Below are positions 22,004 through 28,808 of a stretch of 64,000 nucleotides of DNA, in pieces. The DNA lies in assembly GCF_017833295.1 (NCBI RefSeq), contig NZ_JAFIBW010000001.1, forward strand, positions 6,118,501-6,182,500, written 5' to 3'. The notes beneath the pieces were generated by a model. It worked only from the letters and a program-made list of their open reading frames with translations. It was not told the origin of the DNA and ran no database searches. Position 1 is the first letter of the stretch, and every line of letters starts with the position of its first letter. Both the position numbers and the translations under genes were made by a program. This DNA comes from Methylobacterium sp. PvR107. Its GTDB lineage: Bacteria > Pseudomonadota > Alphaproteobacteria > Rhizobiales > Beijerinckiaceae.

Positions 22004-23227
22004 GTGTTGACCGAGCGCGTCGTTCTGACCGAAAGCATTGCGCCGACAGCGTCCAAGATTTTCACGCAGGCCGGGATCGGCGACATCCGGCAATTGCCTC
22101 GGGCCGTCAGCCCCGAGGATTCCGGTGATCTTGCCGGCGCCACGATCCTCGGCATCCGCTCGCGCACGACAGTCACCGCCGCGCTGCTCGACGCACTGCC
22201 CGATCTGACCGCCGTCGGCTGTTTCAGCGTCGGGACCAACCAGGTCGATTGCGAGACGGCGCGCGCCCGCGGCCTGCCGGTCTTCAACGCGCCGTTCTCG
22301 AACACGCGCAGCGTCGCCGAACTCACGATCGGCGAGATCGTGATGCTGCTCCGGCGCATCCTGCCGCGCTCGGAATCCGCCCATGCCGGCGGCTGGGACA
22401 AATCGGCCAAAGGCGCCTTCGAGGTGCGCGGCAAGACCCTCGGGATCGTCGGCTACGGGAATATCGGCGCGCAGCTCTCGAACCTCGCCGAGGCGATGGG
22501 CATGCGGGTGATCTTCTACGACCTGACCGACAAGCTCCGCCACGGCAACACCGAGCCGGCCGAGAGCTTCGAGGCACTGCTCGCCGCCAGCGACGTGGTC
22601 AGCCTGCACGTCCCGGAGACGCCGCTGACCCACGGGCTCATGAGCGCCGACCGGATCCGCGCGATGAAGCCCGGGGCCTGCCTGATCAACAACAGCCGCG
22701 GGACGGTCGTGGACCTGGACGCGCTGGCCGCGGCCCTGCGCGACGGCCATCTCGCCGGGGCCGCGATCGACGTCTTCCCGGTGGAGCCCACCTCCAATGC
22801 GGAGCGCTTCGTGTCGCCCCTGCAGGGCCTCCCGAACGTCATCCTCACCCCGCATGTCGGCGGCTCGACCGAGGAGGCCCAGGACCGCATCGGCGCGGAG
22901 GTGGCCCGCAAGCTGGTCGACTACGTCCAGACCGGCTCGACGCTGGGCGCGGTGAACTTCCCGCAGGTGCAGCTGCCGCCGCGCCTGTCCGGCGCGCGCT
23001 TCCTGCACGTGCACCGGAACGTGCCCGGCGTGCTCGGGCAGATCAACGCGATCTTCTCCGGCCGCGCGCTCAACATCGACGCGCAGTACCTGCAGACGGA
23101 CGGCGAGTTCGGCTACGTCGTGGTCGATGCGTCGGTGCGGCCGGACGAAGCGGAGGCGGTGCACCGCGCGCTGCGGGCCATCGACGGCACGGTCCGGACG
23201 CGGCATCTCCGGCCGGCGGCGGGGTAA
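22004..23227 (+). CDS. serA: D-3-phosphoglycerate dehydrogenase, E. coli type
   Basis: A 407-residue enzyme oxidising 3-phosphoglycerate to 3-phosphohydroxypyruvate, the first step of serine synthesis. It has GTNQVD and NAPFSNTRSVAELTIGE in the substrate domain. The NAD fold has GIVGYGNIGAQL (residues 147-158), LINNSRGTVVDLDAL and the catalytic His in LTPHVGGSTEEAQ (about 284). The C-terminal ACT domain (HVHRNVPGVLGQINAIFSG..LNIDAQYLQTDGEFGYVVVD) binds serine for feedback inhibition. Length and motifs follow E. coli SerA rather than the longer type. GTG at 22004 is chosen for AGGAGGAGAG at 21991-22000. It faces the cysteine desulfurase/encapsulin genes. Confidence 0.93.
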   Translation: MLTERVVLTESIAPTASKIFTQAGIGDIRQLPRAVSPEDSGDLAGATILGIRSRTTVTAALLDALPDLTAVGCFSVGTNQVDCETARARGLPVFNAPFSNTRSVAELTIGEIVMLLRRILPRSESAHAGGWDKSAKGAFEVRGKTLGIVGYGNIGAQLSNLAEAMGMRVIFYDLTDKLRHGNTEPAESFEALLAASDVVSLHVPETPLTHGLMSADRIRAMKPGACLINNSRGTVVDLDALAAALRDGHLAGAAIDVFPVEPTSNAERFVSPLQGLPNVILTPHVGGSTEEAQDRIGAEVARKLVDYVQTGSTLGAVNFPQVQLPPRLSGARFLHVHRNVPGVLGQINAIFSGRALNIDAQYLQTDGEFGYVVVDASVRPDEAEAVHRALRAIDGTVRTRHLRPAAG

Positions 23228-23318
23228 AGAGACCGGATTCGAAAGGTCCGGGACCTGCTGCGGGTGCAGGACGGAGCCCTGCCGAGACACGGCATCACGG
23301 CTCCGCCCCGATACACCG

Positions 23319-23338
23319 CCCAAGGGCAGGCCCTTGGG
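23319..23338. terminator. hairpin between the convergent serA and cysteine desulfurase genes
   Basis: CCCAAGGGC (23319-23327) and GCCCTTGGG (23330-23338) form a 9-bp inverted repeat with a tiny loop between two convergent genes. No T-run follows on either strand, so it may only weakly stop transcription or protect mRNA ends. Confidence 0.35.
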
Positions 23339-23360
23339 AATCCCGCAACGAGGCGCCGGC

Positions 23361-25341
<1,981 letters not shown>

Positions 25342-25355
<14 letters not shown>

Positions 25356-26745
25356 GGTAGTTGCCCAGCAGCACGTTATCGAGGCGGGCGATCGCGTCCT
25401 CGACCAGCACGGCGGCCGAGAAGTAGCGGGTCACGAGGTGCGAGGCGATCGAGTGGTCGTTGGTGCCCATGTAGCGCACCGACAGGCCGGGCTCGATCTC
25501 GCCGGTCACGCCGGACTTCTGCAGCCCGACCACGCCCTGCTCGCCCTCGCCGACGCGCAGCAGCAGGATCGAGGTGGTCTGGGCCCCCGTCACCGGGTCG
25601 ATGTCGACCGGCAGCTTGTCGCTCGGCACCAGCGGCACGCCGCGCCAGGTGATGAACGGGGCGCCGAACAGGTGGACGACGACCGGCGGCACGCCGCGGC
25701 GGGTCGCCTCCCGGCCGAAGGCCGCGATGGCGCGGGGATGGGCCACGAAGAAGGCGGGCTTCTTCCAGACCAGCGTCAGCAGCTCGTCGAGGTCGTCCGG
25801 GGTGGGCGGGCCGCCGCGGGTGGGGATGCGCTGGCGCGGGCCGACCTCGTGGAGCAGGCCGAACTGCGAATTGTTCAAGAGCTCCCACTCCTCGCGCTCC
25901 TTCACGGCGTCGACCGTGAGGCGGATCTGCTCGCGGAGCTGGTCGATCTCGTTGGAATAGAGGTCGGTCACCCGCGTGTGGGTGTTGAGGATCGTCTGGA
26001 TGGTCGAGAGGTGGTACTCGCGCGGATCGACCTCGTAATCCACGAAGGTCGTGGGCAGGCGCGGCTCGCCGGTATGGACCGCCAGCAGCTCGATGCCCTG
26101 CTCGCCGTAGGAATTGGTGTGCCCTTTGAGGCGGTCGCGCTCCTCACGGTACTGCGCGATCTTGGCGCGGATCTCCTCGCTCTCCACCGCGGCGGCGTCG
26201 AGGGTCAGGAGGGTCACGGCCGACAGGGCCTTCACGGCCGGGGCGGGCGCGCTCTCACCGGCGAGACCCGCATCGCCGAAATAGTCGCCCTTCGTGGCCA
26301 GGCCCTGGCGCAGGCGTCCCGTGTAGGGGCCCGACAGGGTCAGCTCGACCGTGCCGTCGGCCACGACCGTGAGGCTGCGGCCCGCGGAACCCTCCTCGTG
26401 GATCACCGCGCCGGCCTGGTGCCGGCTCTCGGTGAACTTGCCGGCGAGGGCGGCGAGCTCGGCATCGCCCAGCCGGCTGAACAGCGGCACGGCGCGCAGG
26501 GAGGACGGGCGGATCACCCGGCCCTTACCATCTCCCTTGTCCTCGGCGGCGAGATCGATCCGGCCGGGCTTGGCCAGCACGACGGCGCGGCGGTTGACGC
26601 GGTAGACCCCGCCCGCCACGTCCACGAAGGGCAGGAGCCGCAGGAGCCAGCGCGGCGTGTTGGCCGCGTTCTGGACCGAGGTGACGGTCGCCGTCGCAAG
26701 ATTGCGTGCCGCCGTGGCGCTCACGCTCAGACCCGGTCCGCTCAT
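25342..26745 (-). CDS. family 2 encapsulin shell protein with cNMP-binding insertion (2B type)
   Basis: A 467-residue HK97-fold shell protein. Residues 1-80 form the N-arm and first strands (ATATVTSVQNAANTPRWLLRLLPFVDVAGGVYRVNRR). About residues 85-190 are an inserted cyclic-nucleotide-binding-like domain (SLRAVPLFSRLGDAELAALAGKFTESRHQAGAVIHEEGSAGRSLTVVADGTVEL...GDYFGDAGLAGE...AVTLLTLD). The remainder is shell fold (DPREYHLSTIQTILNTHTRVTDLYSNEIDQLREQIRLTVDAVKEREEWELLNN, then AHPRAIAAFGREATRRGVPP). Insertion of this domain defines family 2B. The gene precedes and overlaps that of its likely cargo. Whether the domain binds cAMP or another ligand cannot be told from sequence. Confidence 0.9.
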
Positions 26746-27180
26746 CGTTCGTCCTCACTCCAGTCAGGGTTGCAGGCGCGCCGCATCGATCCGCGCGGCG
26801 GCTTTTCGTCCCGCAGCCTGTGCGGGGCGAGCACAAAACGTCTCGGTCAAGACTTGATGACGACAACAGCCTGTCGAGGCCGCATCGTCGCCAGATGAAT
26901 CAGGTCTCTCCCGGCGGTCGGACGATCTTTGTCCGCCGCTCAGCCGGTCTCAATGCATGTCGGCTCCGGCGGGATCTGGATAAAGTCCGATTCGGCCGGC
27001 GGTCAACGAAACGATCTCCCTATTTTTGACCATTCCTTGGAAGCTGATCCTCTGGCATGCACAACGCATAGGACACGACGTTCATCCGGACGCGAGATCA
27101 GAGAATTTAATTTTGCCGGATCGGTATACGCGGCGGCGGCCGGACGACTTTGTTTCAAGGGAAGAATATTTCGGCGCGTC
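26746..27180. other. intergenic region upstream of the encapsulin genes
   Basis: This 435-base region contains a long AT-rich part (about 26970-27150, e.g. CTATTTTTGACC near 27020 and GAATTTAATTTTGCC near 27104), unlike the surrounding DNA. It must contain the promoter of the leftward shell-cargo pair, and it separates that pair from the stop of cysE. No coding frame or recognisable operator was identified. Confidence 0.5.
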
Positions 27181-28026
27181 TCAGATCCCGTCCCCGTAGC
27201 CGAAGGACTGGTCCATGCTGAGCGCCGGCTCCTCGTCCACGGGCAGGCGCGAGACGACCCGGGCCGGCACGCCCGCCACGGTCGTGTGGGGCGGCACGTC
27301 CTGCAGCACCACCGCGGCCGCCGCGACCTTGGCGCCCGCCCCGATCCGGATGTTGCCCAGAACCTTGGCGCCGACGCTGAGCAGCACCCCGCGCTCGATC
27401 TTGGGATGCCGGTCGCCGCTCTCCTTGCCGTTGCCGCCGAGCGTCACCGACTGGAGGATCGACACGTCGTCGGCGATCACCGTGGTCTCGCCGATCACCA
27501 CCCCGGTGGCGTGGTCGATGAACACGCCGGAGCCGATCCGGGCGGCCGGGTGGATGTCGCAGCCGAACACCTCGGAGATCCGGCTCTGGACGTGCAGCGC
27601 CAGGGTCGCCCGGCCCTGGTGCCAGAGCCAGTGGCCGACCCGGTAGGCCTCCAGCGCCGCCAGACCCTTGTAGAACAGGAACGGGTCGAGGTAGCGGCGG
27701 CAGGTCGGGTCGCGCTCGCGGATCGCCACGAGGTCGCGCACCGCGTGGGCGCCGGCCTGCGGGTCCGCCTCGAAGGCCGAGAGGCACAGGTCGCGCATCG
27801 ACAGCCGGGCGAGGTCGCCGTCCCCGAGCCGGTGGGCGAGGCGGTAGGCGAGGGCCTGGGCCAGCGAGCGCTGGTCGAGGATCGTCGCCTGGATGATCCC
27901 GGCATAGAGCGGCTCCTCGATCAGGGCCGCCTCGGCCTCGGCGCGCAGGGCCGCCCAGACCTCGGATTCCGCGGTGCTGCGGCTCGTGGCGCGCAGGGGC
28001 GGCTGGGTCGAAGCCAGGGCTGTCAT
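27181..28026 (-). CDS. cysE: serine O-acetyltransferase
   Basis: A 281-residue enzyme that acetylates L-serine with acetyl-CoA to give O-acetylserine, the precursor of cysteine. The N-terminal helical domain (VWAALRAEAEAALIEEPLYAGIIQATILDQ..LAQALAYRLAHRL) is followed by the left-handed beta-helix of hexapeptide repeats. Active-site region: GSGVFIDHATGVVIGETTVI, then SILQSVTLGGNGKESGDRHPKIERGVLLSVGAKVLGNI and PPHTTVAGVPARVV. Transcribed in the same direction as the shell-cargo pair, 435 bases upstream of it. It supplies the substrate line for the encapsulated desulfurase. Confidence 0.93.
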   Translation of the reverse strand: MTALASTQPPLRATSRSTAESEVWAALRAEAEAALIEEPLYAGIIQATILDQRSLAQALAYRLAHRLGDGDLARLSMRDLCLSAFEADPQAGAHAVRDLVAIRERDPTCRRYLDPFLFYKGLAALEAYRVGHWLWHQGRATLALHVQSRISEVFGCDIHPAARIGSGVFIDHATGVVIGETTVIADDVSILQSVTLGGNGKESGDRHPKIERGVLLSVGAKVLGNIRIGAGAKVAAAAVVLQDVPPHTTVAGVPARVVSRLPVDEEPALSMDQSFGYGDGI

Positions 28027-28066
28027 CGGAGACCGATCGCGGCGGGGGAGGGCGCGTCGACGCCGA

Positions 28067-28273
28067 TCACGGCACGGGCCGGAACAGGTCGGGCAGGTAG
28101 CGCTCCAGGATGTCGTAACCCGGGAACTTCACGTCCACGGTGGCCGGGGCATCGCCCGCGCGGTGGATGCCCACCACCCGGCCCCTCGCGTGACGCCAGA
28201 TGCCCAGGATGTCGGCCAGATCCGGCCGCGCGAACACGACCGCGTCGCCCTGCATCATCGTCGCTGAGGCCAT
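28067..28273 (-). CDS. small protein upstream of cysE, unknown function
   Basis: A 68-residue soluble protein. It begins MASATMMQGDAVVFARPDLADILGIWRHARGRVVGIHRAGDAPATVDVKFPGY and ends LERYLPDLFRPVP. The G-D-x-V, G-R-V-V-G-I and V-D-V-K-F-P-G-Y elements suggest a small SH3-like barrel. It is the first gene of a leftward unit with cysE (40 bases between), so a link to cysteine or sulfur metabolism is likely by position only. The frame is open further upstream, but ATG at 28273 starts the conserved part. Confidence 0.6.
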   Translation of the reverse strand: MASATMMQGDAVVFARPDLADILGIWRHARGRVVGIHRAGDAPATVDVKFPGYDILERYLPDLFRPVP

Positions 28274-28808
28274 CCGGCCGGTCCCCCTGGATTGGCCGCG
28301 CGCGGCGGCCTGATTCTGTGGCGGTCGGCGCCGGACCTGCGGTCGGCCCGGTCGCGATAAGCTCATTTCAAATGCCCCGGGCGACGGAGAACGTTTCGGT
28401 CGCGCACGGCCGAAACGGGAGCATTATTTTCGCTAAGCCTTTGTTACAGAACGATATTTATGGATCGCCCCGCATTTGGCAAGCCCGCGCGCAGGGCCGT
28501 GTCCGCTGGGGCAGGGCCCTGGATCGCGTGCAGTCGCGGCGGCCGCGCCCGCGCCAGACCTCACCTTCTGCTCCGGGACGCGCCTTCGACGAACAACCTG
28601 CGCTGCAAGTCCTCGCCAATTTGGCAGCACATTCTCGGGGCCGCCGCCTAGATTGAAGCGGTCGACGGACAGTCGATGCAGAGCCGGATGAGGTTTGCCG
28701 TGAGCGCCAGCGAAGATCGGATCGCCCTGATGACGGTGCCGTGTCTGCCGTGTTGCCGCGCCCAGCAGGAGGAGACCGCACGACATCTGACACGAGAGGC
28801 GACCAGCG
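28274..28808. other. intergenic region between divergent genes
   Basis: This 535-base region between the leftward cysE unit and a rightward small gene has no supported coding sequence. It contains the hairpin-plus-motif element at 28392-28439 and AT-rich patches such as ACGATATTTATGG near 28452, presumably promoters for both directions. Confidence 0.5.
28392..28439 (-). promoter_or_regulatory. hairpin plus 17-base motif upstream of the cysE unit (copy 1)
   Basis: On the minus strand GGCTTAGCGAAAATAAT (28439-28423) is followed by a hairpin formed by CGTTTCGG / CCGAAACG (28392-28417). A second copy, 15 of 17 bases identical and also followed by a hairpin, lies at 32547-32608 in the same orientation. 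Both stand about 100-150 bases before a leftward start codon. It could be a shared promoter/operator or a structured leader. Confidence 0.4.

Follow-up and report, generated by a model that had tools for sequence, protein, structure and literature searches.

A 64 000-nucleotide stretch of the genome of Methylobacterium sp. PvR107 (the window; positions 6118501–6182500 of an assembly in one contig of 6.36 Mb) encodes a family 2B encapsulin shell, an overlapping SufS-type cysteine desulfurase (CD) with a long leader and, upstream of both, a dedicated serine O-acetyltransferase (cysE). Shell and CD probably form a desulfurase-type 2B encapsulin that works like the desulfurase compartments of family 2A, which serve sulfur storage as described in PMC12407261. 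An initial annotation of the window had drawn shell, CD, cysE and a facing serA into one line from serine to sulfur, gated by a cyclic nucleotide or a related ligand. Open reading frames and family models recover this gene set as laid out there, including the 14-bp overlap between the 3' end of the minus-strand shell gene and the start of the CD gene (25342–25355). The same annotation presented desulfurase cargo as best known with family 2A, which holds. Its pairing with a 2B shell is already catalogued: PMC8346489 (2021) counts 1281 CD operons of family 2A and 199 of family 2B, the latter in nine phyla, and ranks serine O-acetyltransferases and rhodaneses highest among enriched accessory genes. 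In the literature searched, PMC8346489 alone brought together encapsulins and serine O-acetyltransferase, and a single paper matched both Methylobacterium and encapsulin. Our analysis adds the dedication of cysE, the incidental nature of serA, both leader motifs, the history of insert and cargo on the shell tree, and the degenerate cassette of the insert.

The shell body matches the SrpI-like, HK97-type family PF19307 (4.6e-109, residues 206–461), and a cNMP domain (PF00027, 1.2e-07, residues 109–188) precedes this main match, in keeping with the E-loop insertion that characterises family 2B. A profile search of the whole genome with PF19307 returned one protein, the window shell. Foldseek placed the predicted structure, in which the body is poorly modelled, closest to 9BHU, a family 2 shell; the 50 rows shown by VIA-align contain no encapsulin, so that list is uninformative on the shell fold. 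The shell scores 571 bits against the NCBI family 2B model NF041163 (cut-off 400) and falls on the 2B side of a tree of shell bodies, in agreement with the 2B type first assigned. The profile comparison that the initial annotation had proposed is less exclusive than this, as the family 2A model NF041162 is also exceeded (426 bits, cut-off 380). All seven other CD-type 2B shells scanned pass both models, and among three 2B shells of other type one passes the 2A model and two fail. Although NF041162 is passed, the presence of the insert sets the shell outside family 2A. One relative (L092) has a shell without the usual N-terminus, through a real change, a frameshift or an assembly error.

The neighbouring enzyme scores 544 bits against the SufS model TIGR01979 (cut-off 475, residues 267–660) and carries Lys486 (in SGHK) and Cys624 (in RSGHHC), both invariant in 12 sequences, which we take to be the pyridoxal phosphate lysine and the active-site cysteine of SufS-type desulfurases; by both residues it is a member of this class. 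It also passes NF041166, named 'family 2A encapsulin cargo', by a narrow margin (808 bits, cut-off 800), so automatic names may label 2B cargo as '2A'. Ahead of the SufS domain lies an unannotated leader of ~265 residues, and the initial view of it as a loading-type leader is borne out by counterparts of both motifs of 2A cargo. Motif 1, matched by eye to LARLANEFFS (PMC8049743), falls in a helix predicted with low confidence (residues 18–33), and motif 2, in the context SDYYFLNL, matches AASPYYFLDG of the same cargo (PMC8049743). Of 22 leaders from loci with a CD beside a 2B shell (CD-2B), 21 contain the pattern Y[FYW][LIVM], as do 19 of 22 2A leaders, compared with shuffle means of 0.7 and 0.6, these sequences being related and not independent. 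The sequence pattern that we used to mark where the SufS domain begins excluded a further 12 2A leaders from this count, and all 12 of those frames hold a YYFL-type pattern. A SufS-type enzyme behind a leader with both 2A motifs, the first recognised by eye, fits desulfurase-type family 2 cargo. PMC8049743 reports that the 2A leader is necessary and sufficient for cargo loading and that the desulfurase is about sevenfold more active once loaded in the shell. One CD frame of the sample (L081, 439 residues) has no leader, for which real change, frameshift and assembly error are all candidate causes.

Shell and CD are paired beyond chance. Across 80 loci retained from 325 relatives, 79 have a CD on the same strand, and in 78 its frame opens no more than 300 bp from the shell end; the sole locus without a CD (L041) is a 3.5-kb contig. 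Since the gene overlap alone would bring translational coupling, the enzyme might instead be an extra cytosolic SufS, coupled to the shell and never enclosed in it. We consider this very improbable, because the genome encodes a separate SufS-like enzyme elsewhere (473.5 bits, 5 kb from a remoter class V aminotransferase of 199.6 bits) and because the long leader with its 2A-type motifs would otherwise go unexplained.

Three known systems frame the proposed compartment. Kitasatospora sp. NBC_00039 (WP_331741892.1 and WP_331741889.1) resembles the window in having a shell with an insert like a CNB (cyclic nucleotide-binding) domain, followed by a SufS gene with a 14-bp overlap, and NCBI names this shell 'family 2B encapsulin nanocompartment shell protein'; its leader, however, is 87 residues long by our cut, and no cysE appears among its 13 listed neighbours. 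The 2A system SrpI/CyD of Synechococcus elongatus (L147; PMC8049743) shares with the window the cargo class, both leader motifs, the TWRG loop and a serine acetyltransferase gene adjoining the shell, but its shell lacks the insert, the acetyltransferase is of EpsC type, and cysK and a rhodanese stand in the same row. Terpene-type 2B shells (9BHU of Streptomyces griseus, cyanobacterial L197–L203, and Streptomyces lydicus in PMC12407261) have a CNB-like insert with a degenerate cassette as in the window, yet differ in cargo and in the luminal loop, and the seven cyanobacterial loci hold two shell genes where the window holds one.

We placed these shells on an unrooted body tree (282 columns, insert excluded) of 78 rows selected from the loci at hand: 34 2A shells, 23 CD-2B representatives and 21 2B shells that have no CD next to them. 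Fifteen of the latter come from loci with a terpene cyclase homologue (L144 and seven cyanobacterial loci); the other six gave no homologue in a search with one terpene cyclase and one prenyltransferase, two of them lying near a methyltransferase. The tree splits 2A (34 rows) from 2B (44 rows) with support 100/99 and places the window shell in a CD-2B clade of 19 rows (100/100) that also takes in Xanthobacter, Aquabacter, Aureimonas, Chelatococcus and Verrucomicrobiota. Insert and cargo each require a single change, on different branches; therefore desulfurase cargo spans 2A and 2B. The tree does not support an independent gain of the insert among desulfurase shells, as one change suffices, and gain and loss of the insert are indistinguishable because the tree is unrooted. 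The candidate luminal loop, which aligns with 'diagnostic motif 2' of PMC12407261, is like that of 2A in the CD-2B shells: TWRG is present in 23/23 CD-2B and 32/34 2A rows and in 0/21 other 2B rows, a difference that counts as a single event because the 21 rows form one clade. In the best tree CD-2B is paraphyletic, with the other 2B shells inside, and a single CD-2B clade is not rejected (approximately unbiased test, p = 0.105); the insert tree separates CD-2B from other 2B with weak support (78/89). Three actinomycete and one cyanobacterial CD-2B shells (L110, L141–L143), on long branches, lie on the side of the 21 non-CD shells, and the question of a single CD-2B clade turns on these four rows. 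A shell labelled 'Bacteroidetes bacterium' (L097, from a bog metagenome-assembled genome) nests at very short distance within Methylacidiphilales shells, suggestive of a mislabelled or mis-binned genome or of recent transfer.

The insert is a true CNB β-barrel by PF00027, its predicted structure and structure comparison, and its nearest PDB sequence matches by domain are the CNB domains of cGMP kinases. The ratio of nonsynonymous to synonymous substitution rates over eight comparisons is 0.11–0.30 for the insert (0.03–0.17 for the body), so the domain is maintained and not decaying. A maintained fold of this kind would suit the proposal of an insert that, with cAMP or cGMP bound, gates the mobilisation of sulfur in the shell, but the phosphate-binding cassette argues otherwise. 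In canonical cassettes (FGE...R) the Arg coordinates the cyclic phosphate (PMC2246266); the cassette of the insert aligns gap-free with the CNB-B domain of cGMP-dependent protein kinase I and reads FGD, with Pro167 at the Arg position. Arg fills its canonical column in 0/44 family 2B rows, and Glu fills its own in 3/44. Eight rows carry an Arg at another place in the cassette stretch, and the alignment register is uncertain for the 21 non-CD rows. PMC12407261, citing a preprint, reports an absence of cyclic-nucleotide binding by the family 2B insert, although that shell is not CD-type. Because of Pro for Arg, Asp for Glu and this non-binding, we regard cAMP or cGMP gating as very unlikely, and the insert does not have the cassette of a canonical cyclic-nucleotide-binding domain; the initial annotation's wording of a 'related ligand' is still compatible with the data.

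Two other roles for the insert deserve weight. Some CNB families without the Arg bind other ligands, such as heme in CooA and chlorophenolacetic acid in CprK (PMC2246266), and trypanosome protein kinase A, in which the Arg is replaced, binds nucleosides (PMC10959531), which leaves room for a different ligand here. A sensor for ligands that lack a cyclic phosphate (nucleosides or metabolites of the cysteine pathway), gating the two-fold pores, would agree with the constraint on the insert and with its position over these pores in solved 2B shells (PMC12407261). We nevertheless find it rather doubtful: the insert has no known ligand, it is the fastest-diverging part of the shell (mean identity within CD-2B 42%, compared with 77% for the body), and the additional ribose-binding glutamates of the trypanosome kinase have no counterpart identified in the insert, where no test was aimed at them. 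Low conservation with a retained fold, the same position above the pores (PMC12407261) and the fact that 2A shells perform the same job without an insert point instead to a plug or spacer that binds no ligand and either constricts the two-fold pores or makes contacts on the outside of the shell. This is a plausible role, if short of probable, as purifying selection and strictly kept residues (Arg146, Gly157 and some others, invariant in 18 sequences) suggest more than bulk. A more far-reaching idea, which we think unlikely, makes the insert of desulfurase-type 2B shells a repurposed CNB domain that responds to a ligand lacking a cyclic phosphate (a nucleoside or cysteine-pathway metabolite) by opening or closing the two-fold pores, and thereby puts sulfur storage in plant-associated methylotrophs under the control of metabolic state; desulfurase would then be the older family 2 cargo, and the sensor would have been gained or lost around an unchanged loading system. 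Desulfurase-type 2B shells share their cargo with 2A and their insert with terpene-type 2B, and they therefore offer a clean test of the role of the insert, in which one enzyme class with its loading motifs can be compared between shells that have the domain and shells that lack it.

The link to cysE rests on neighbour counts and phylogeny. From 69 starting loci, 66 had adequate DNA upstream and 64 downstream, and cysE lies ahead of the shell in 64 of the 66 Methylobacterium-type loci. Within Methylobacterium, two cysE copies are present in 8/8 shell-bearing genomes and one in 2/2 shell-less genomes. The linked copy is recognised by its N-terminal domain (SATase_N, 5.2e-30) and by TIGR01172 (223 bits, cut-off 211), and it forms a clade with the shell-linked copies from Xanthobacter and Aquabacter (support 100/99). 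By these counts and this grouping it is a dedicated paralogue, and the association noted initially is supported. That it is the ordinary copy of the order was rejected: 41 genomes were examined, 37 matched and 30 loci were obtained including that of the window, and 29/29 cysE loci of the other genomes are nearer the unlinked copy. The linked CysE retains a C-terminal DGI; it is through a C-terminal Ile that CysE binds to cysteine synthase. The dedicated cysE connects the system to cysteine-sulfur flow in Methylobacterium. The place of serA in the initial serine-to-sulfur line is a different matter. Adjacency in the window genome and in three close relatives could suggest that serA is part of the set and supplies CysE with serine, but it is convergent with the CD gene (3' ends 133 bp apart), stands beside the CD in 3/64 Methylobacterium-type loci, and has a 69% identical second copy elsewhere in the genome. 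Membership was rejected on these counts and is most improbable.

Taken as a desulfurase compartment, the system might operate as follows. The leader would dock inside the shell, on its inner face, with the LFG..F.TWRG loop as a possible site, while the dedicated CysE would supply O-acetylserine, a cysteine precursor. Cysteine could pass into the shell through its pores, where the enclosed desulfurase would yield alanine and a persulfide, the sulfur being stored or handed on. The outward insert may cover the two-fold pores, its position in solved 2B shells, and restrict them or sense a ligand without a cyclic phosphate; it would not be a cAMP or cGMP sensor. Several observations weigh against operation in the manner of 2A compartments. 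Assembly and cargo enclosure are predicted from genes. The YYFL pattern is missing in one CD-2B leader (L143) and in three of 22 2A leaders, and in PMC8049743 a fragment of the 2A leader with only the YYFL motif failed to bring cargo into the shell. Two of the 66 Methylobacterium-type loci have no cysE upstream, and several CD-2B loci of other genera, e.g. Kitasatospora, lack it beside the shell. Structure prediction gave a CD model too poor to assess leader or disorder (mean predicted local distance difference test score, pLDDT, 40.7); the shell modelling proposed initially succeeded for the insert, with its CNB fold, and not for the body (mean pLDDT 50.4), and only the insert part was used.

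Table 1. Coordinates of the features within the window.
Feature	Position	Strand	Family matches and remarks
serA, phosphoglycerate dehydrogenase, incidental neighbour	22004-23227	+	PRK11790, 572 bits, cut-off 404
SufS-type cysteine desulfurase, proposed cargo, 664 aa	23361-25355	-	TIGR01979, NF041166
Leader motif 2, residues 220-223, YYFL	24687-24698	-	pattern Y[FYW][LIVM]
Leader motif 1, residues 24-33, LVGRLAREIY	25257-25286	-	counterpart of 2A cargo LARLANEFFS (PMC8049743), by eye
Family 2B encapsulin shell, 467 aa, HK97-type body with inserted CNB-like domain	25342-26745	-	PF19307, PF00027, NF041163
Candidate luminal cargo loop, residues 355-373, LFG..F.TWRG	25627-25683	-	aligns with 'diagnostic motif 2' (PMC12407261)
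Degenerate phosphate-binding cassette, residues 156-170, Asp158 for Glu, Pro167 for Arg	26236-26280	-	
Inserted CNB-like domain, shell residues 76-205	26131-26520	-	
Candidate promoter of shell and CD, TTGACC-N17-TTATCC	26978-27006	-	between cysE and shell
cysE, serine O-acetyltransferase, 281 aa	27181-28026	-	PF06426 and hexapeptide; TIGR01172
Small open reading frame directly upstream of linked cysE	28067-28366	-	internal ATG at 28273, the end point of the initial annotation

A gap of ~435 bp separates cysE from the shell in the window, whereas in Xanthobacter and Aquabacter cysE ends just ahead of the shell. This gap contains a possible separate promoter for shell and CD, in which TTGAC and TA are invariant across eight chosen, aligned Methylobacterium sequences. 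A scan of 23.2–28.7 kb for promoter and terminator consensus sequences gave no match and did not pick up this candidate either, and an Rfam search at gathering scores found nothing between 20 and 32 kb. The small open reading frame beside cysE had no Pfam match at E values up to 1; within the genus, its homologues are found at 8/8 linked cysE loci and 0/10 unlinked ones. The closest named shells are those of Methylobacterium sp. UNC378MF (97%), M. longum (96%) and M. fujisawaense (95%). In the family Beijerinckiaceae, a shell gene is present in 50 of 199 genomes, and frames of 2B length occur in Methylobacterium and one further genus. At the other end of the sample, a plasmid of Streptomyces sp. 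BHT-5-2 (NZ_CP081497.1; L143, L150, L153–L156) carries five family 2 shell genes, of which just one neighbours a desulfurase.

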